Below are positions 1,926 through 52,813 of a stretch of 52,813 bases of DNA, one piece after another. Source of the stretch: a virus; IMG/VR virus record IMGVR_UViG_3300037502_004181, positions 1-52,813 of that record; one strand, written 5' to 3'. Below the pieces are notes generated by a model. It had not been told where the DNA came from. It ran no database searches and was given only the letters and a program-made list of their open reading frames with translations. A program made the position numbers and the translations under genes. Within the stretch, counting starts at the first letter, position 1; each line of letters opens with the position of its first letter.

Positions 1926-2201
1926 TTAATTTTCAATCGATAGCGGATACCTAGCCTTTATCTCAGAAACTTTATCTCTCCATATCTTCTCCGCTTCCGG
2001 CGTGCCATCGTATTGCCACTCAAGAAAAAGAGGGTCTGATTCTTCCCTGTACGCCTTCTGCCTTTTTTCATAGTTTTGTGATAATTCAAAATCCCTTTGG
2101 CGTATCACCGACTCGATTTGTTCAGAATCCATTCCCAGAGATTTCATGTATTCTTCTGTAAAATCTGTGTGTGTTTTTCCTTTAAATATGTAACTAAACA
2201 T
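1926..2201 (-). CDS. Small phage protein coupled to the DGR reverse transcriptase
   Basis: A 91-residue acidic, mostly helical protein that starts at the ATG overlapping the last codons of the RT gene. A strong AGGAGG lies seven bases upstream, so the longer frame beginning inside the RT is unlikely. The C-terminal pattern (DPLF..W, then W..KV.EIKARYP) resembles small proteins often encoded right after tail-fibre genes in phages, some annotated as tail assembly proteins. That resemblance is from memory. It is the last gene of the late operon before the att site. Function unknown. Confidence 0.75.
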   Translation of the reverse strand: MFSYIFKGKTHTDFTEEYMKSLGMDSEQIESVIRQRDFELSQNYEKRQKAYREESDPLFLEWQYDGTPEAEKIWRDKVSEIKARYPLSIEN

Positions 2202-3471
2202 CTGTTTTCCTCCTGAATGGCTCAGCAAAAAGAGCCTTTTTAAGGTTGTAGGTGCTGGCGTGACCCGCATGGCCAAGCCATGATTGAATGTTCTGATTTA
2301 TATCAGAGAGACTTATCTCGCCTTTAGCGAACTGAGACCGATACTTTTTAAGTTTTGTCTTAATTCGCTTGACGCTGCATTTTCTCAGCAACCTATGGCT
2401 CGAATAAATTCGATACCCGAGAAAGTCCAAGCTCCTGCCGTTACTCGTTGAGATGGGGAAAACCTGCGTCTTGCTGTTCGTTTTTAATCTCAGGTAAAGG
2501 TGCAGAAATTCCTCTATATCCTTTCTCCACTGGTGCAGCACAGCCTTGTCGTGGTGAATGATGGCAAAATCGTCCATGTAGCGGATGTAGTGTTTTGCGC
2601 CAAGTGCGTGCTTTGCATATCTATCAAGCTCGTGCAGATACACGTTTGCAAAAATCTGACTGGTAAGGTTCCCCAGCGGAATGCCCACGCCCATTGATTC
2701 GCAAGGGCTGTTATCAATGATGTAAAACAGCAGTTCAAGCGTTCTCTGGCATTGTATTTTTGCCGCAAGGATAGACTTCAATACCTGGTGGTCTATGCTC
2801 GAAAAGTAACGGCTAATATCCGCTTTTAACGCATACGCCTTGCCATGCTTTGACTCCACCTTCTTAATAAAATATTGAGCCCTGTCAGCGCCTTTGTGGG
2901 TGCCTTTTCCTCGTCTACATGCGTATGAGTCATAGATGTAGGTTTTGTCAAACAGCGGCTCGATAACATTGTATATAGCCCGATGGACAACTCTGTCCTT
3001 AAAGTGCGGGGCTGATATCAGACGGCGCTTCGGCTCGAATACGTAAAAATGGTGATAGGGTGACATTTTATACATACCCCACATCAGCTCGTTTTGTATT
3101 TCTATAATGTTCTCTTCCAGATTATTGAAGAAAACTAGCGTTGCGTTCGCCTTTGTTTTTCCTTTTCGGCATGAGTATGCCGCCGATAAAAGATTCTCAA
3201 AATCAAATATCTTCTCGAATGAGCAGCCCAGTGACGCATCAATGGGCTTTATATCTGTTCCGGCTATGGCCGAGGAGGCGGCATCCTTTTCATGATTGCA
3301 CTGACAGCATCCCTTGGGATGGTTGTTTCTGGCTACATCAAGAGCGGGGCGAAAACCGATGTTACTGTTCGAGTTCGACCGCGCATTGTTCAGATTGAGC
3401 GCGCCCAGCCCGGCGTTCGAGCCATTGTTCCAGTTGCCCCCGCGAAGCGGGAACCGGTTCCGCGTATTCAT
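2194..3471 (-). CDS. DGR reverse transcriptase with TR-encoded N-terminal extension
   Basis: Error-prone reverse transcriptase that copies the TR RNA and drives adenine mutagenesis of the VR. RT motifs appear in order: KRRLISAPHFKDR (148-160), motif A KADISRYFSSID (216-227), motif B IPLGNLTSQ (264-272), whose LGxxxSQ form is the DGR signature, and the catalytic YMDD (298-301). The domain starts near residue 80. The ATG at 3471 forms an ATGA overlap with the avd stop and has AGGGGA upstream. Residues 5-43 are translated TR. There is no in-frame ATG, GTG or TTG between residue 2 and M130, inside the domain, so this start seems forced unless a rare start codon is used. Length 425, longer than typical DGR RTs because of the extension. 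Confidence 0.93.
   Translation of the reverse strand: MNTRNRFPLRGGNWNNGSNAGLGALNLNNARSNSNSNIGFRPALDVARNNHPKGCCQCNHEKDAASSAIAGTDIKPIDASLGCSFEKIFDFENLLSAAYSCRKGKTKANATLVFFNNLEENIIEIQNELMWGMYKMSPYHHFYVFEPKRRLISAPHFKDRVVHRAIYNVIEPLFDKTYIYDSYACRRGKGTHKGADRAQYFIKKVESKHGKAYALKADISRYFSSIDHQVLKSILAAKIQCQRTLELLFYIIDNSPCESMGVGIPLGNLTSQIFANVYLHELDRYAKHALGAKHYIRYMDDFAIIHHDKAVLHQWRKDIEEFLHLYLRLKTNSKTQVFPISTSNGRSLDFLGYRIYSSHRLLRKCSVKRIKTKLKKYRSQFAKGEISLSDINQNIQSWLGHAGHASTYNLKKALFAEPFRRKTDV
3343..3458 (-). repeat. DGR template repeat (TR)
   Basis: A 116-base segment that aligns without gaps to the VR at 3897-4012. On the coding strand it holds ten AAC/AAT codons, nine of which are changed in the VR. It ends with an 18-base run identical to the VR end (ATCGGTTTTCGCCCCGCT), the likely initiation-of-mutagenic-homology segment. 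It lies between avd and the RT domain, as in Bordetella phage BPP-1, but here entirely inside the RT open frame and in the same reading register as the target protein. Confidence 0.93.
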
Positions 3472-3824
3472 AATGCCGTCCCCTGTTGCTTGGCATTAAC
3501 GGAGCGTATCCAGCCGCCTATCATTTTTCCAAGCTCAACCAGTTGGCCGACCCATATTTCGTATCTCTTGATGTCGATATACCGCAAGTCCTTGGCGAGC
3601 CTGACTCGCCGTTTCAATATGGCAAGCTCGATATCTAAATCGGTCAGGGTCGTCTTCTTGTGGTATCGCTTAAATGCCGTGATGATCAATCTTTGAAGTT
3701 GCAGCATTGAAAGCCTGATTTCCGCGCCTAAAACATGGCGCTCATGTTTTGGAAATTGCTTTATTGCTTGATAGCCGTACATCATCATTTCCCGGCATTT
3801 TTCTTCAATGATTAGCGTTGTCAA
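3468..3824 (-). CDS. avd: Accessory variability determinant (Avd), four-helix bundle
   Basis: Small basic helical protein (about 118 residues) of the bAvd/four-helix-bundle family. In BPP-1 the protein forms a pentamer that binds the RT and the TR RNA and is needed for cDNA synthesis. The gene sits directly between target gene and TR/RT, the canonical place. The start is uncertain: the frame opens at a TTG at 3839, but a GGAGG four bases before the TTG at 3824 favours the latter. The stop overlaps the RT ATG as ATGA, indicating translational coupling. Confidence 0.85.
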   Translation of the reverse strand: MTTLIIEEKCREMMMYGYQAIKQFPKHERHVLGAEIRLSMLQLQRLIITAFKRYHKKTTLTDLDIELAILKRRVRLAKDLRYIDIKRYEIWVGQLVELGKMIGGWIRSVNAKQQGTAL

Positions 3825-3845
3825 CTTGCCTCCGCACAACTAAAG

Positions 3846-3863
3846 GGCGCACTACCGTGCGCC
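3846..3863. promoter_or_regulatory. DGR hairpin/cruciform downstream of the VR
   Basis: A perfect 7-bp stem, GGCGCAC paired with GTGCGCC, closes a four-base loop that reads GGTA on the target-gene coding strand. It lies 33 bases after the VR end and just past the target stop codon. DGRs such as BPP-1 have a required hairpin with a GRNA tetraloop at this place; GGTA fits GRNA. No good T run follows, so a plain terminator is a weaker explanation. Confidence 0.72.
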
Positions 3864-3884
3864 ATCCAAAGAATCAGTTAACAG

Positions 3885-5255
3885 TTACACAAAGAAAGCG
3901 GGGCGAAAACCGATGCTACTGTGCGAGAACGACCGCGCAAAGTTCAGAATGAGCGCGCCCAGCCCGGCGCCCGAGCCATCGTGCCAGCCGCCCCCGCGAC
4001 GCGGGAACCGGTCACCATAGTTTCTAGTGTATAGCACCCCTCCAACAGTCTGGTCTGATGCAGTCTCTAGCAGCAGCTGTCTGAGCAGTTCAACAGGGGT
4101 ATAACCGGCCGATTTTTGCAGAATCTTGAATTCGACAGAGTTGCTATATCCAGAGTTTATGTCGTCACCGACATTACCCATGCGATTTGTCACTGTTGAA
4201 TTGAGGATAGGTGAGCCGCCGGTAGTTGAAGTTGAATCGTAATATGCTGTGTGACGGTTCCATCCAGCCTCTGTTAATGATGGGTTGTTATCCAGCGTTG
4301 TCAGGATTTGGCCGTCATCCAATTTCATCTGGTCAATCCATTCCCAGACGTTGCCGACCAGGTCGCAAATCCCAAACTCTGTATGATCATGGCTCCATGT
4401 TGATGGCCCCTTGCCGGTGCCTGTTGCCCCATTTCCACTGGTGTCGCCAGGTAGTCCGTTATCGGCGCGGCGAGCGGTTTCCCACTTAGCCTCATGGCTG
4501 CGGCCATAGTTCGTATTACCGCGAGGCACAGTGCCATTAGCCAGAGACCAGAGCGCAATGGCGGCCCACTCGTGAATCGACATAAGATGCCAATTGTCAC
4601 CCTTTTGTGTACAAAGCTGTTTTGCAGCGTCGTAGTTAACTGAGGTTCGCGGCTGATTGCCGCCGATAACGGCAGAGCCGCCCGCCGCCGATGATGCCAG
4701 ATATTTGCCGACAAGGATTTCGCCACGAGGCGCTCCGTTTGTGATGAATGCAGGATGCGTTCCGGTGCCAAGATTCAATGCCGGAAGATTTAGATCTTCA
4801 ACGTTGAACCTTGGTATCACACACATGATGTTGGGATTTCCCTGGGCATCATATACGACAGTGTTTCTTCCACCTGAATTTTGTTCGATCGACTTTCGAT
4901 AGCCATCCGTTGCGATAATAGTTAAGTTGCTGACGTTCTGGTTATAGTCAGTCTCAAGTGTGTTCAGCGCATCATCATAGTCATTTATCAGTTCGGATGC
5001 CTGGTCTGCCAATTTCTTGGTATAACCTTGGACAGGAATGATAGAGTACCCTTGGCCTGATTGAGAATTGCTTTTGTAACTCGGATAAATTGATAGTGCC
5101 GAATCACTGGCAATATTCGTTATCTCATAGGTCAGCCCATCAGGGCCAACGAATGCATCACCTACCCGGCTGTTTGCCACCCACGCAGTGCCGCTTCCTG
5201 TTACTGTGGTGGAACCATTGGTTACCGTTACTGTGCCTGTTCTATACCATGCCAT
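3885..5255 (-). CDS. DGR target: tail fibre / receptor-binding protein with FGE-sulfatase (C-type lectin) fold
   Basis: A 456-residue protein at the end of the tail operon. Residues 1-75 are a beta-rich fibre N-terminus (MAWYRTGTVTVTNGS...), which probably anchors to the tail. A short helical linker near 76-115 follows, then a domain of the formylglycine-generating-enzyme/sulfatase-modifying type, with its hallmark GICDLVGNVWEW near residue 295. The VR spans residues 415-453 at the extreme C-terminus (RRGGGWHDGSG... to GFRPA), as in other DGR variable proteins. It starts 12 bases after gpJ with a GAGG site. Inferred role: host receptor binding, with DGR retargeting changing tropism. Confidence 0.92.
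   Translation of the reverse strand: MAWYRTGTVTVTNGSTTVTGSGTAWVANSRVGDAFVGPDGLTYEITNIASDSALSIYPSYKSNSQSGQGYSIIPVQGYTKKLADQASELINDYDDALNTLETDYNQNVSNLTIIATDGYRKSIEQNSGGRNTVVYDAQGNPNIMCVIPRFNVEDLNLPALNLGTGTHPAFITNGAPRGEILVGKYLASSAAGGSAVIGGNQPRTSVNYDAAKQLCTQKGDNWHLMSIHEWAAIALWSLANGTVPRGNTNYGRSHEAKWETARRADNGLPGDTSGNGATGTGKGPSTWSHDHTEFGICDLVGNVWEWIDQMKLDDGQILTTLDNNPSLTEAGWNRHTAYYDSTSTTGGSPILNSTVTNRMGNVGDDINSGYSNSVEFKILQKSAGYTPVELLRQLLLETASDQTVGGVLYTRNYGDRFPRRGGGWHDGSGAGLGALILNFARSFSHSSIGFRPAFFV
3897..4012 (-). repeat. DGR variable repeat (VR)
   Basis: A 116-base segment at the 3' end of the target gene. Against the TR it shows 14 substitutions: 13 at TR adenines (coding strand), giving N to G, H, D, G, I, F, F, H and S, and one T-to-G change at 4000 near the 5' edge, which changes L to R. 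The terminal 18 bases are identical to the TR. This pattern is direct evidence that adenine-specific retrohoming has acted here. Confidence 0.93.
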
Positions 5256-5267
5256 TTTTAGCCTCTA

Positions 5268-8200
5268 TTAAGTATTTTCTGTGGCGATTAGTGATAACCG
5301 CTGAGTTTTAAATGGGACGCTACCCGCGTTATAGGTCGTCACGCGAGCGCGGTAATAACGTGTTGCTGTTGTTTGGTCTGAGTCGGTAAAAGTGGCGCTA
5401 CCCGATAGGTTTGATGAGCCGATTCGGTCTGTTCCTTCTTGCGAAATTGTCCACGAACCACCGCATAAAATGGTTTGTACGACTGACCATGTTTTACCTA
5501 AATCTAGTGAGCGCTCTAATACGACAGTGCCGCTGGTTGAGCCGCTAGAAGATGTACCTGTTTGGTTTAAAAAGAATGAGCCGTGGCATTGCAGCGATAC
5601 GGCGATAGTGATGACGCCGCCTAAACTGCCGAACGTGGTTTCGACTGCTGCCGTTGAGCTGAGCTGAGATGATGTAACGGCATTTTTGTAGTCGCCAGTG
5701 GTGATGGCGCCACCGAAATAGGCGCTGCCATCTACTTTGCGGTATGACGTGGCATTAGCTTCGGTGCAGTTACTGATATCGCCCACATCAGGCCCAAACC
5801 ATTCCAAGAATTGATTGCTGCTACCAAACCCAATACCAAAGACCTGCAGCGAACTGCCAATACGTTGGATAATGGTTTTGTTATGAAGTGTTCCAATAAC
5901 GGCATTATTCATGTAGACCATGCCGTTCTGCACCACGAATGGTGACGTAACTGTGGTTGTTCCTGTGGTTTGATTGAGAATTGCAAATCTGTCAGCTAAA
6001 ACGAAAAAGTTAGACTGAAGGCCTGCAGAGCCGTTCTCATAGCTTAGCCCAAACCCTGAAGCATAGTATTTGCCATCAGCAGTGATATTCATGCTGACTT
6101 TCCACATTGCTTCGATATTGCCTTCAAGGTCTGCCTGAGCCTGAGACACTTGCTGAATCGCTGTGGTATTGTTGCCTACCGAGGATTGCAGCGTCGTTAT
6201 GTCCTGAGCAAGAGCGCTATCCGCATCAGCTCTGGCCGTAGCCTCAGACTGAATTGCGGCAGCGTTGTCTCCTACCGAGGATTGCAGCGTTGTTATGTCT
6301 TGGGCAAGAGCGCTATCCGCATCAGCTCTGGCTGTAGCCTCAGATTGAATCGCGGCTGCATTAGTTGATACGCCAATATTGGCCGCATCTGCGGCAGCTT
6401 GTGCCGCAGCAGCTGAAGCCTGAACAGTCGTTATGTTTTGAGCTAATGATTCATCAGCTGTAGTCCGAGCAGTACTTTCCTGCTGAATTGCTGCTGAGTT
6501 GTTTTTTGACTCTGCTGATATGGTAGTAATTTGACGCGCAAGCGCTTCATCCTCTGTTGCCCTGGCCTCCTGCTCTACGCGGATCGCAGCCTTTGACTTC
6601 CATCCGGAAAGAACATCAGCAAGGCGGCCATCGCCAGTGTCTTCCACCGTCGCCTGAACTGTATTTATTTTCCTGCTCAATACACTATCAGCATTGGCTC
6701 TGGCCGTAGCCTCAGACTGAATTGCGGCTGAGTTGTCTCCGACAGACGTTTGCAGCGTTGTTATGTCTTGCGCTAACGCACTATCAGCATTGGCACGGGC
6801 CGTAGCCTCAGACTGAATTGCGGCAGCGTTGTCTCCTACCGAGGATTGCAGCGTTGTTATGTCTTGGGCAAGAGCGCTATCCGCATCAGCTCTGGCTGTA
6901 GCCTCAGATTGAATCGCGGCTGCATTAGTTGATACGCCAATATTGGCCGCATCTGCGGCAGCTTGTGCCGCAGCAGCTGAAGCCTGAACAGTCGTTATGT
7001 TTTGAGCTAATGATTCATCAGCTGTAGTCCGAGCAATACTTTCCTGCTGAATCGCGGCTGAGTTGTTTTTTGACTCTGCTGATATTGTAGTAATTTGACG
7101 CGCAAGCGCTTCATCCTCTGTTGCCCTGGCCTCCTGCTCTACGCGGATCGCCGCTTTTGACTTCCAACCAGCAAGAACATCAGCAAGGCGGCCATCTCCA
7201 GTGTCATCATCGCGATAGGCGGCGATCATGGTGTCAGTGCGTGAAGTGTTGGCTTCTAGCTTGCCGTCAATCAAATCAACAGAGTTCTGAACATCTGTCA
7301 TTTGCGCCGTGAGTGCAGCTACCGCCTCACCAATACTGGCGTAATCACCTACATACTCCCAATAGTTGGTATCTGTTGGCAGAGTTCCAGCAGGAATGTT
7401 GTCCTGCTTTGCCCGGTATATTGATATACCTGTTCCGTCGTCGTAGGTGACGAATTCGCCGCTGTTATATACCGTTGAGGCGCTCCACTCTCCTGCCCCA
7501 GAAATGTCAGCCAGCTGCTGGTTTATACTGTCAATGTTTGCCTGGATCTGCGGTATTTTGTCTATTTCAATGTTTATGGAATCAAGGTTTGACTCAATTC
7601 CAGGTATTTTTTCTACCTCTATATTTATAGAGTCAAGGTTTGATTCGATTCCTGGTATTTTTTCAATGGGGTCAAGCAGACTCTGGGCCAGTTCGCTTTC
7701 TGATATCTGCCCAGTAAGGTAGTCGAGTATTGTGCCTGCATCTGATGATGATGCGCCCTGTACATAATCAGACCAGGGGCCAATGTTTCCTGTTCTATCG
7801 ACTATCCTGGCCCTGAACCAGAAGGCAATACCTGCTGCCAAACCGGTTATCGTGTGGTTGTCGAGTGGGTAAGCATACTGCCCAAGCAGAGCCTCATTGG
7901 CGCCATTGTTGTCAGTTGCATAGTTGATCTCGGTATAAAGCGTATCCTCAGACCCAGGTTGAAACGCCCACTTTAGGCCAATGCCAAATACCAATGAAGT
8001 GGCATTTAGGCTGGCAAGCGCAGGCGGTGACCCTGTTTTTCCTGTAATATCAGTAAGAACTGATGTTGCCGGTTTGGAGGATATGTCAGCAGCATTAACC
8101 GCGGTGACCCTGGCAATGTATTGGCCGGTGTACACTCCCCGCACATCAACGCTTCTTGTACCTGTTCTAGGCAGACGGATCCAGTCGCCAGAGTCTTTCC

Positions 8201-10208
8201 TCCACTCAACATCGTATGCCACGGCGTCCTCGGCTGCATCCCACTCTATTGTCATTACAGTCACAGACATCGTTTGCTCAATCAGCGTTTTTTGGCTGAT
8301 AACAACGTTGGTCGGTGGAGCCTGCACATTTGGCGGAATAACAGAAATAGGCCTGATATCTATCTGGGCGCCGTCATCAATGGCCTGGTGCTTTCCGGGC
8401 ACGCTGATAACCGCATTTATCTCATACTCGTGTTCTTCACTTCTTTTTATTGAAAGCACTCTGAACTGCATTACAGCGAGCTCGTCGGCGTCTACCGCCC
8501 AAACTGACTGAGCCTGAGGCACTTCTGAATAGTCAGCATCAACGGTAACTTGCGGTCCATTAACGGCGGTGATAGTTCGCCATTCGGCCTTGCCTGATGG
8601 CAAGTTTACAATCAGCCGGTTACCTACCGCTGCGGATGAGGTTTTATCCAGAGTGACTACGCTTGCAGTAGCAGAGCGGATCCTGCCGCCGTTAATTGCG
8701 CCCTGCAGCATTTCGTCTGCGACATTGATAATGTTGCCAGGGCGCGGAATTTGACCGTCAAGACCAACTCTGAAAGTTACCGTTCTTGTTTCAAGTTGCT
8801 CTGATTTAAGGGCCCACAGTCCGGCGCGCTGGGCCTGCCCTTCACTGGTGCAACCTATGGCCTCAACATCAAGCTGTGAAATGCCAAGAGTCACAGCTGA
8901 GTTGTCGAATACAACGGCTGTATCGTCCTTGAATGACTGTTCTGGGTTGCTCCAGCGCACGCTGGCAACACTGTGGCGATCACGCAGTGCGGTACCCTTG
9001 TACTCGAATATCCCGTCTATCACGTTGGCATTGGTGTATGTGTAGATTGGGTCTTCCGGCATGTCTGCCGTTACCATCATCTGCGAACCATCCCAGAAGC
9101 TGTTGCCGTGGAATATGCTCGTCAGTTGGTTTAGCAGCTGATAGGCCTGCCCCTGGTTCTGTATATACACGTTGCAGGTATAGCGCGGCTCTGTGCCTCC
9201 CTTGCCATCATCTACCATCACATCGCAATACTGGGCAATCTGGTACAGCTTCCACTTATTGACCATATTGGTATTGATGCGATTGCCAAGGCCAAAGCGC
9301 TTGTGAAGAACCAAGTCATACCAAACCCAAGCCGGGTTATTGGTGTACGCCTCTTTAAATGTTCCGTCCCAAACTCCGTTTGATGTTCCTGGGCCACTGG
9401 TTGCATAGGTTCTGGTCAGAGTATCGTAGTTAGCCGGCACCTTGATTATTCGCCCGCGGCAAAGCGCCGAGAACTTAGGAATATTGGAGAACTGCTCGGA
9501 ATCGTACTCAACTGCGATAAGTGCGGTGTGCGGGTATCTCAGCTTGGCATCAACCACCTCAGTGATTGAGTCAATTACCATCTTATCTTCTATCTTGAGT
9601 GATTCAGCGTTTGCCGTCAGCCTGCGCACTCTCACCTGCCAGCTGCTACCCTCTTGCGGCAAGTCAATTCTGTGGCTGCGCTCGTAACTCGACCCTGTTT
9701 TTCCATCAACGGCAGTATTGAGTACTTCAATAAAGCTGCCGCCATCGGTCGATACGTCAATGGCGTAGGCAATGCGATAGCCAACCAGGTCACCGTTATC
9801 CTTTTGTTCCAGAAGCCGTGGCCAGGCAAAGCGGATCCTGACAGCCGACAGCTGCGGATTGGTGAACTGGCGCACGAACGGGGTTCCGTAGCGCAGTTCT
9901 ACCCCAACAGACACCTCGTTGTTGGTTTCCGGGTACCCCTGAATATAGGTTTGATCAACAGTACCTGGGCGAAAGTCCACCTTAACGCCGTCAATATTCT
10001 CACCGCCGCCAGTGCTGCGAACCGGGGTGCCATCAAGCTTCACTGAGTTGTAGCCGTTTACCAGCCCTTCTATTTCGCCTTCACTGATGGCATATAGCAG
10101 TTTTGCGGTGGCGACAGAACGCAGCGTGTCAGGTGCTGTGTACGGCGTCTGAGAACCAGATCCACCAGATTTAGCGCCTTTTATTGGCTGCGCAGATTGC
10201 TGCATCAT
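5268..10208 (-). CDS. J: Tail tip / host specificity protein J (central tail fibre)
   Basis: Large tail-tip protein of about 1646 residues, homologous in layout to lambda gpJ. It has an N-terminal tip-attachment region (GSQTPYTAPDTLRSVATAKL and on), the conserved middle domains, fibronectin type III-like segments around residues 640-770, a coiled-coil stalk built of tandem repeats, then a DUF1983-like segment and a beta-rich C-terminus. Three short repeats of KIPGIESNLDSINIE type precede the stalk. The ATG at 10208 has a GGAG about ten bases upstream; an in-frame ATG follows at 10205. It would seal the tail tip and contact the host envelope. Having a separate DGR-diversified fibre next door suggests two layers of host recognition. 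Confidence 0.94.
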   Translation of the reverse strand: MMQQSAQPIKGAKSGGSGSQTPYTAPDTLRSVATAKLLYAISEGEIEGLVNGYNSVKLDGTPVRSTGGGENIDGVKVDFRPGTVDQTYIQGYPETNNEVSVGVELRYGTPFVRQFTNPQLSAVRIRFAWPRLLEQKDNGDLVGYRIAYAIDVSTDGGSFIEVLNTAVDGKTGSSYERSHRIDLPQEGSSWQVRVRRLTANAESLKIEDKMVIDSITEVVDAKLRYPHTALIAVEYDSEQFSNIPKFSALCRGRIIKVPANYDTLTRTYATSGPGTSNGVWDGTFKEAYTNNPAWVWYDLVLHKRFGLGNRINTNMVNKWKLYQIAQYCDVMVDDGKGGTEPRYTCNVYIQNQGQAYQLLNQLTSIFHGNSFWDGSQMMVTADMPEDPIYTYTNANVIDGIFEYKGTALRDRHSVASVRWSNPEQSFKDDTAVVFDNSAVTLGISQLDVEAIGCTSEGQAQRAGLWALKSEQLETRTVTFRVGLDGQIPRPGNIINVADEMLQGAINGGRIRSATASVVTLDKTSSAAVGNRLIVNLPSGKAEWRTITAVNGPQVTVDADYSEVPQAQSVWAVDADELAVMQFRVLSIKRSEEHEYEINAVISVPGKHQAIDDGAQIDIRPISVIPPNVQAPPTNVVISQKTLIEQTMSVTVMTIEWDAAEDAVAYDVEWRKDSGDWIRLPRTGTRSVDVRGVYTGQYIARVTAVNAADISSKPATSVLTDITGKTGSPPALASLNATSLVFGIGLKWAFQPGSEDTLYTEINYATDNNGANEALLGQYAYPLDNHTITGLAAGIAFWFRARIVDRTGNIGPWSDYVQGASSSDAGTILDYLTGQISESELAQSLLDPIEKIPGIESNLDSINIEVEKIPGIESNLDSINIEIDKIPQIQANIDSINQQLADISGAGEWSASTVYNSGEFVTYDDGTGISIYRAKQDNIPAGTLPTDTNYWEYVGDYASIGEAVAALTAQMTDVQNSVDLIDGKLEANTSRTDTMIAAYRDDDTGDGRLADVLAGWKSKAAIRVEQEARATEDEALARQITTISAESKNNSAAIQQESIARTTADESLAQNITTVQASAAAAQAAADAANIGVSTNAAAIQSEATARADADSALAQDITTLQSSVGDNAAAIQSEATARANADSALAQDITTLQTSVGDNSAAIQSEATARANADSVLSRKINTVQATVEDTGDGRLADVLSGWKSKAAIRVEQEARATEDEALARQITTISAESKNNSAAIQQESTARTTADESLAQNITTVQASAAAAQAAADAANIGVSTNAAAIQSEATARADADSALAQDITTLQSSVGDNAAAIQSEATARADADSALAQDITTLQSSVGNNTTAIQQVSQAQADLEGNIEAMWKVSMNITADGKYYASGFGLSYENGSAGLQSNFFVLADRFAILNQTTGTTTVTSPFVVQNGMVYMNNAVIGTLHNKTIIQRIGSSLQVFGIGFGSSNQFLEWFGPDVGDISNCTEANATSYRKVDGSAYFGGAITTGDYKNAVTSSQLSSTAAVETTFGSLGGVITIAVSLQCHGSFFLNQTGTSSSGSTSGTVVLERSLDLGKTWSVVQTILCGGSWTISQEGTDRIGSSNLSGSATFTDSDQTTATRYYRARVTTYNAGSVPFKTQRLSLIATENT
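6241..6648 (-). repeat. Tandem duplication in the gpJ stalk, copy with C-terminal position
   Basis: Nearly identical at DNA level to 6805-7212, at a constant offset of 564 bases (188 codons, in frame). It encodes the DTGDGRLADVL start followed by alternating blocks such as ARTTADESLAQNIT and SEATARADADSALAQDIT. Only scattered substitutions separate the copies, so the duplication is recent or kept homogeneous. Confidence 0.85.
6805..7212 (-). repeat. Tandem duplication in the gpJ stalk, copy with N-terminal position
   Basis: Partner of 6241-6648 at a constant 564-base offset. Homology continues below the stated left edge in degenerate form, because the shorter SEATARA(D/N)ADSALAQDITTLQ block itself recurs. 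The frame is kept throughout, so the effect is a longer stalk. Confidence 0.85.
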
Positions 10209-10231
10209 GGGGTAACGTCTCCCGACATTTA

Positions 10232-10258
10232 GGTACAAAAAAACCGCTTTCGCGGCCG
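10232..10258 (-). terminator. Rho-independent terminator between rha and gpJ
   Basis: On the minus strand a GGCCGC-GAAA-GCGGTT hairpin precedes a run of T. The same 28-base unit recurs at 16033-16058. It lies just after the rha stop and before gpJ, so late transcription must read through it, presumably by antitermination, or gpJ needs another promoter. Confidence 0.75.
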
Positions 10259-51802: not shown

Positions 51803-52813
51803 ATGGGCAGGAAGCGCCTAAATGCAGCAGACAACAAATTGCCGCCCCGGGTGTACCGCGGGCGAGCATCTTTTGAGTGGCATCCAAAGGGAGGCGGATC
51901 AATTCGACTATGCTCACTTGATGCGCCTCTATCTGAAGTTTGGCTGCAGTATGAGCACCATGCAGAACGCCTGAGCAAAACTAACACTGTAGAGCACTTG
52001 GTCAATGCTTTCATGGCCAGTGCCGAGTTTTCAGAGTTGGCCAGGGAAACCAGAAAGGACTATGAGAAGTACAGCAAGCCCCTGTTGAAAGTTTTTTGCG
52101 CCATGCATGTTGATAAAGTGGAACCTCAGCATGTGCGGATTTACATGGACAAGCGAGGCCTGCACAGCGCGATACAGGCTAACCGTGAGCATGCATTTTT
52201 CAGTCGATGTTATCGGTATGGGTATGAGCGCGGCATGTGCAAAGGCAATCCCTGCAAAGGGGTTCGAAAATTCAAGGAGAAAGCTCGCACCCGCTACGTG
52301 ACCGATATTGAATATCAGGCGCTGTACGATGCTGCTGATCCTGTGGTTAAGGTGGCCATGGAGCTGGCATATCTGTGCTGCGCCCGTCAGCAAGACGTGC
52401 TTTCCATGCGCACCAGCCAGTTACTGGAGCGCGGGATCTTCATTGCACAGAGCAAAACTGGCGTTGAGCAAATCAAGCTGTGGACGCCAAGACTCAGAGC
52501 AGCCGTCACCCTGGCAAAATCACTGGCACCGGCCGGAGTGGTATCAACTTTCGTGATCTGCAAGCCTGATGGCGGTTCTTGGACAAGGGACGGATTCAAC
52601 ACGCGCTGGCGTAAAGCGAGGCAGCAGGCCAGAGCGATATCTGGATTGCCACTTGATTTCACGTTTCACGATCTAAAAGCAAAGGGAATATCTGACCTAT
52701 CAGGGAGCCTTCAGGATAAGCAGGCAGTATCCGGTCACAAGCACATAGGCCAGACAGCAAGATATGATCGAAAGGTCAAAGAGGTTCCGGTGGTCGGAGG
52801 CGACAGCAAGTGA
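51803..52813 (+). CDS. int: Tyrosine integrase
   Basis: 336 residues. N-terminal arm-binding and SAM-like core domains to about residue 160, then the catalytic domain with R195 (CARQQDVLS), K218, H289 in FHDLKAKG, H312 in SGHKH and nucleophile Y321. Box II reads HDLK rather than HxxR. GGAGG upstream. It ends at the window edge, directly next to the expected right att site. Confidence 0.92.
   Translation: MGRKRLNAADNKLPPRVYRGRASFEWHPKGGGSIRLCSLDAPLSEVWLQYEHHAERLSKTNTVEHLVNAFMASAEFSELARETRKDYEKYSKPLLKVFCAMHVDKVEPQHVRIYMDKRGLHSAIQANREHAFFSRCYRYGYERGMCKGNPCKGVRKFKEKARTRYVTDIEYQALYDAADPVVKVAMELAYLCCARQQDVLSMRTSQLLERGIFIAQSKTGVEQIKLWTPRLRAAVTLAKSLAPAGVVSTFVICKPDGGSWTRDGFNTRWRKARQQARAISGLPLDFTFHDLKAKGISDLSGSLQDKQAVSGHKHIGQTARYDRKVKEVPVVGGDSK

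Follow-up and report, generated by a model that had tools for sequence, protein, structure and literature searches.

The 52,813-nucleotide IMG/VR virus record IMGVR_UViG_3300037502_004181, analysed here over its whole length and hereafter called the window, carries on the minus strand of positions 1926–5255 what is, to judge from its sequence, a complete and apparently intact diversity-generating retroelement (DGR), ordinary for its kind. It adds a new member to the family that includes the elements of phages VHML, VP58.5 and ACA1, and it almost certainly diversifies the C-type-lectin-type C-terminal tip of a prophage side fibre. The element and its template overlap have both been described before. 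The prototype DGR is that of BPP-1, and the window, read 5′ to 3′, follows the same order: target gene, variable repeat (VR), hairpin, avd, template repeat (TR), reverse transcriptase (RT) gene and a small open reading frame (ORF). An initial annotation had claimed a complete single-strand DGR in this order, and every element that it named lies where it was placed, on the minus strand. Its interval also takes in a further gene at 1926–2201; the TR that it described is present, not as an element apart from the RT but inside the RT ORF. The parts of the cassette are:

3885–5255, minus strand: target gene, 456 aa, with a side-fibre-like N-terminus (residues ~1–105), a body of FGE-sulfatase/C-type-lectin type and the VR at its C-terminus
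3897–4013, minus strand: VR, 117 nt, the C-terminal end of the target
3846–3863, minus strand: post-VR hairpin of GRNA type, 7-bp stem and GGTA loop
3468–3839, minus strand: avd, 123 aa, with NCBIfam and Pfam matches
3343–3459, minus strand: TR, 117 nt, inside the RT ORF, its reading frame being that of the VR
3225–3344, minus strand: candidate spacer (Sp) RNA, with a sub-threshold match to Rfam RF02921 RT-14 and covarying helices among relatives
2194–3471, minus strand: RT ORF, 425 aa, with the TR at codons 5–43, the spacer at codons 44–84 and RT homology from ~86

TR and VR form a 116-nt repeat pair (3343–3458 and 3897–4012) with 88% identity and starts 554 nt apart. Its 14 mismatches include 13 at the 23 TR adenines, the remaining one being T>G, and a further A>G just beyond the pair (3459/4013) brings the differences at TR adenines to 14 of 15 (Fisher 6e-11). 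A DNA search of the 52.8-kb record at E 0.001 found no second VR or TR. The comparison was extended to nine close cassettes: the window, the related loci L049–L052, L062 and L069, and those of VP58.5 and VHML. Rather than being invariant among relatives, an outcome that the initial annotation had named, together with invariance in induced populations, as able to overturn its proposal, the VR varies at 22 of the 25 adenine sites and at 4 of the 92 other sites, and the TR at four adenine sites and one other. The changes at A in the VR are to G (74), T (27) and C (13). Such adenine-limited variation is what past mutagenesis at adenines would be expected to leave. Homology and comparative variation thus both uphold the DGR mechanism that had been claimed. 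Some relatives weigh against it: the adenine bias of the TR/VR mismatches is weaker in L160 (10/16) and L138 (11/17), and in L141 only 15 of 32 mismatches are at A and the 5′ part of the VR is out of register. It is very unlikely that the window holds a degraded, inactive remnant with an old VR difference. Relatives with broken RTs do exist (L138, which lacks residues 131–328, and proACA1-A, which has a frameshift), but the RT, Avd, target, hairpin, TR and spacer of the window are all intact, and close relatives hold different VRs on otherwise similar cassettes.

LGxxxSQ is a motif of DGR RTs. The translated RT contains LGNLTSQ and an intact catalytic YMDD, as the assignment to the DGR type had claimed, and from residue 86 it matches the BPP-1 bRT (PDB 8ub7_A, E 6e-59) and also Pfam RVT_1; its match to PHROG 1423 has an E value of 6e-176. 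A group II intron or maturase, a retron and a defence RT were considered and rejected: the NCBIfam RT matches all lie under their cut-offs, and the PADLOC matches shown are to generic or DRT-type RT models and are far weaker than that to PHROG 1423. The protein first taken for Avd by its size exceeds the cut-offs of both NCBIfam NF033474 (108.6 bits, cut-off 80) and Pfam bAvd (108 bits, cut-off 40); its direct sequence match to BPP-1 4dwl is weak (E 0.006). Profile matches, the kind of check that had been suggested, support both the RT and Avd. The hairpin reported after the VR is also there: GGCGCAC-GGTA-GTGCGCC lies 33 nt beyond the VR end, in keeping with the rule for phage DGRs given in the accessible text of PMC3240598, a GRNA-loop hairpin 4–34 nt past the VR. 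With a stem of at least 6 and a 4-nt GRNA loop required, such a hairpin follows the VR in all 45 locus entries in which a VR was found. These come from 48 entries that have a TR, some contigs being represented by two entries; by the same rule no hairpin follows the TR. The post-VR hairpin is also picked up by a simple terminator scan. Since the GRNA loop is constant while the stems vary, we take it as the DGR hairpin, which may also act as a terminator.

Translation of the RT most likely begins at the ATG overlapping the end of avd and proceeds through the TR and the spacer. This start codon and the avd stop codon overlap as ATGA in 39 of 39 loci, and the window has no ATG, GTG or TTG between codons 1 and 130, yet RT homology begins at ~86. 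A TR was resolved in 20 of the 27 loci whose RT-core identity exceeds 70%. In every one of these 20 the distance from the TR end to the RT core is 122–124 nt, and in 19 the RT frame covers the TR; only VHML, in its deposited form, departs from this. In 20 of 21 loci, again all but VHML, no stop interrupts the spacer when it is read in the RT frame. Altogether, 31 of the 39 loci have complete long RT frames, five run off the locus end and three are broken (VHML, proACA1-A and L138). Spacer ratios of nonsynonymous to synonymous substitution rates (dN/dS) were calculated for 16 chosen, non-independent pairs; they range from 0.10 to 0.42 in the 15 computable pairs, one pair having identical spacers, and in all 16 pairs the spacer has fewer synonymous differences than the RT core. 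An alternative, which we consider improbable, is that an unrecognised start beyond the TR, by a non-canonical codon or by processing, yields the RT, and that the open TR frame is a mere by-product of the stop-free VR frame. The TR has to be stop-free in the VR frame regardless, and among the 68 loci from outside the family in which a TR was resolved, the open RT frame reaches the TR in 11 (one partly) and stops short of it in 57; but the spacer, to which nothing in the VR corresponds, is likewise stop-free in those 20 of 21 loci and shows coding constraint, and the constant ATGA overlap and the lack of start codons in the window also speak against a downstream start. Some observations count against translation through the template. 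One in-frame ATG, GTG or TTG occurs within the spacer in 11 of the 39 relatives, a point in favor of the downstream start, and the RT-core dN/dS, where computable (three pairs), is 0.02–0.05 and thus lower than that of the spacer. Structure prediction of the RT is uninformative, with a mean predicted local distance difference test score (pLDDT) of 49 and values of 25–31 for residues 1–90. In the deposited VHML sequence (L133, ~4230–4400), a single additional nucleotide within the spacer splits the RT frame, which is uninterrupted there in the other 20 of the 21 loci; either a sequencing error or a dead RT would account for it. A translated template is a known, uncommon DGR variant: the accessible text of PMC10612066 describes the TR of ACA1 as translated into an N-terminal extension of the RT. 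The traits of the VHML-like subgroup, namely TR in the RT frame, ATGA start and a spacer of ~123 nt, are all present in the window.

By analogy with BPP-1, whose spacer recruits RT-Avd according to the available part of PMC12875486, we read the spacer of the window as a probable spacer RNA of the BPP-1 type, lying here within a coding frame. Its match to RF02921 RT-14 spans the whole model and scores 37.4 bits (with a short stretch searched, E is 4e-4 to 9e-4), and the helices of this match coincide with positions predicted from the spacer alignment. For 30 distinct spacer sequences, RNAalifold predicts 26 pairs, nine of them with compensatory changes. Alignment cells that can pair make up 97.6%, as against 89.8% in shuffles and 26–45% in slid versions, and 73 cells are changed on both sides of a pair, as against 24.1 and 2–10; the slid control favors the spacer structure because that structure was derived from the same alignment. 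The case against a structured spacer is that its score falls short of the RF02921 gathering score of 48.1, and a gathering-threshold Rfam scan of the whole window does not report RF02921; that the model is found in only three of ten relatives, also below gathering (41.9–44.7 bits), the other seven having no match at E 0.1; that the excess of covarying pairs is modest (nine as against 7.1 in shuffles, 20 of 500 shuffles equalling it); and that, taken by itself, the spacer of the window has no more folding stability than its shuffles (z 0.04).

If the element works as in BPP-1, a transcript of avd, TR and RT would double as RT mRNA and template. RT-Avd would be recruited by the spacer, the RT would copy the TR with random bases at adenines, and the cDNA would replace the VR at the initiation of mutagenic homing site (IMH) and hairpin, giving new receptor specificities. 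Since the RT would be translated through TR and spacer, the same nucleotides would be used three times, as template, as structured RNA and as coding sequence. The switching of receptors would follow by analogy with BPP-1 and with ACA1/ACA2 as presented in the accessible text of PMC10612066.

If any result here is new, it is the apparent occasional rewriting of the template itself. For 39 contigs, a tree was built from the avd and RT flanks and ancestors were reconstructed; 43 branches carry TR changes. TR substitutions at an ancestral A number 43 of 200 (A making up 22% of TR sites), compared with 308 of 797 in avd (A 34%) and 1119 of 3364 in spacer and RT (A 33%) on the same trees. On four branches, which were picked after seeing the data, 31 of 34 TR changes are at A (L053 16/17, L138 7/8, L149 with L154 5/6, L052 3/3). 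The other 39 branches have 12 of 166, one of which is the single TR change of the window itself; TR adenines are thus otherwise conserved. All 31 adenine changes lie at sites where the VRs of the family vary, and all are at codon position 1 or 2. Corrected for 43 branches, L053 (2e-8) and L138 (0.007) are significant alone, and L149/L154 (0.11) and L052 (0.47) are not. The RT frame is still open in L053, L052 and L149. At L053 325–441, on a contig shared with L146, the TR lies in an intact RT ORF and has 10 adenines compared with 24 in its sister L062; 15 adenines have been lost and one gained, and the encoded RT N-terminus is a VR-like peptide. In L138 (10540–11274), the internally deleted RT lies next to a TR changed at seven adenines; its tree branch is long because the RT core has been lost, and in direct comparison with its sister L158 seven of nine TR changes are at A, rather than seven of eight.

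A gut-phage clade of 20 lineages served as a control. There, 21 of 168 TR changes are at A (A 26%) and no branch is rich in adenine changes, the highest share among branches with at least three changes being 3/7. The two clades do not differ significantly (4/43 branches in the family vs 0/27 in the control, Fisher 0.15). Members L019, L024, L100 and L101 of the control clade likewise have the TR in an open RT frame. In a pairwise control, L104 against L114/L115, nine of 13 TR differences have A on one side, with only 76 nt of TR in L114/L115 and a poor alignment. In other clades, ten close pairs have identical TRs, and their VRs differ at 15–31 sites.

We tentatively propose, at somewhat less than even likelihood, that the DGR machinery of this family occasionally homes onto its own TR and erases adenines, so that a lineage could lose or narrow its hypermutation repertoire while keeping the RT. 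Because the TR lies in the VR frame within the RT gene and its AAY asparagine codons cannot become stops, such rewriting would diversify the RT N-terminus without breaking the RT. The lack of a GRNA hairpin after the TR argues against efficient homing onto it. An explanation with close to an even chance of being correct is that the adenine-only TR changes in L053, L052, L138 and L149/L154 stem from recombination copying a VR, from the same or a co-infecting phage, into the TR, or from assembly error. TR and VR are, after all, 116-nt repeats 554 nt apart from start to start; L149 has the same base in VR and TR at every changed site, the five adenines as well as the single non-adenine; and L053 has no VR on its contig and has an extra non-adenine change (G>T) two bases outside the counted region. 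On the other hand, the VR still has A at two of three changed sites in L052 and three of seven in L138, so their own VR is not the sole donor there, and the stretches shared by TR and VR that flank the L053 changes are short, by eye ~23 and ~13 nt, so that an assembly switching twice is improbable. The TR is usually stated to remain unaltered, for example in the accessible text of PMC10907252, and no report of TR self-rewriting was recognised among the papers listed by literature searches whose coverage excludes most subscription journals.

The fibre and its surroundings set the window apart from its nearest relatives. Two further genes belong to this region:

5268–10238, minus strand: lambda-type tip attachment protein gpJ, a neighbour outside the DGR, with profile matches
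1926–2201, minus strand: small gene, PHROG 5714, overlapping the RT stop by 8 nt

The target matches 5vf4, which we take to be a Thermus DGR variable protein in agreement with the title of PMC6328139, at E 1.7e-58 in two stretches. The second takes in the VR, in line with the claim of a target with a C-terminal VR. The target also passes PF03781 (33.4 bits, cut-off 23.3), and its residues 1–95 match the F2-pyocin side fibre 25ve. With this side-fibre N-terminus, it is an ORF of its own, 12 nt from the lambda-type gpJ, so the description of a fibre beside yet separate from gpJ was correct. Its structure prediction, with a mean pLDDT of 38, is too poor to be informative. Over target residues 111–340, the window is 88% identical to VHML, VP58.5, L049, L051 and L052, but over the first 75 residues only 7% identical; this N-terminus (~105 aa), unrelated in VHML and VP58.5, is 97% and 99% identical in L062 and L069. 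The VHML and VP58.5 targets adjoin other tail genes, P2-like according to the VHML annotation, instead of a lambda gpJ. A kept body, unrelated N-termini and differing neighbours suggest that the fibre body and the DGR have been joined to different attachment domains.

The small gene is probably a tail-fibre assembly chaperone whose ends are swapped among homologues. Its homologues keep the N-terminus and differ in their ends, and the chaperone role is likely because the L059 homologue has Phage_tail_APC as its C-terminal domain (69 bits, cut-off 26.6); the L164 homologue has a DUF4376-like end (24.0 bits, just under the cut-off of 25). PHROG 5714 is listed as of unknown function, and the function of the ACA homologue, gp45, is called unknown in the accessible text of PMC10612066.

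Over the queried 3.4 kb, the nearest named phage records are those of the Vibrio phages VP58.5 (FN297812; 89% DNA identity over 89%) and VHML (AY133112; 86% over 88%), whose gene order is the same; VHML also appears in the Fig. 5 legend of PMC3240598. The Pseudoalteromonas phages ACA1 and ACA2 have 71% DNA identity over 65% of the query and, in the accessible text of PMC10612066, share avd, an antireceptor target and the third small gene with the window, in a P2-like phage context unlike that of the window; the same text places the differences between ACA1, ACA2 and a prophage mainly in the VR. BPP-1 has the order target-VR-hairpin-avd-TR-RT, a homologous RT and an Avd of the same family, but there, according to the available part of PMC12875486, the spacer lies between TR and brt, whereas TR and spacer of the window lie inside the RT ORF. 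The group 3 DGRs of DiGReF, as described in part of PMC3521204, form an architecture class set beside the window by description only. RF02921 RT-14 resembles the window spacer along its full length and differs in that the window match is sub-gathering and inside a coding frame. Pattern searches of 394 whole genomes for the order and 395, partly overlapping, for the family returned only the known Paraglaciecola locus, and no near match was found in the E. coli genomes. The family contigs L138 and L162, both bearing a DGR, have the same IMG genome number (2802429360), which suggests two such prophages in one host. At the edge of the window, a tRNA-like fragment (1752–1837; one copy, weak Rfam tRNA match of 19.4 bits, cut-off 29) lies between a host dgt-like gene with an HD domain (1–1335) and the prophage, with an integrase (51803–52813) at the opposite end; from its sequence and position the fragment is a probable attachment site.

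The cassette brings a prophage with a lambda-type tail tip into a known Vibrio/Pseudoalteromonas DGR family. The translated template and covarying spacer make it a compact case in which one RNA is likely mRNA, template and structural RNA. Self-rewriting of the TR, if true, would contradict the view of an unaltered template and would open the questions of what shields the TR and how DGRs wear out.

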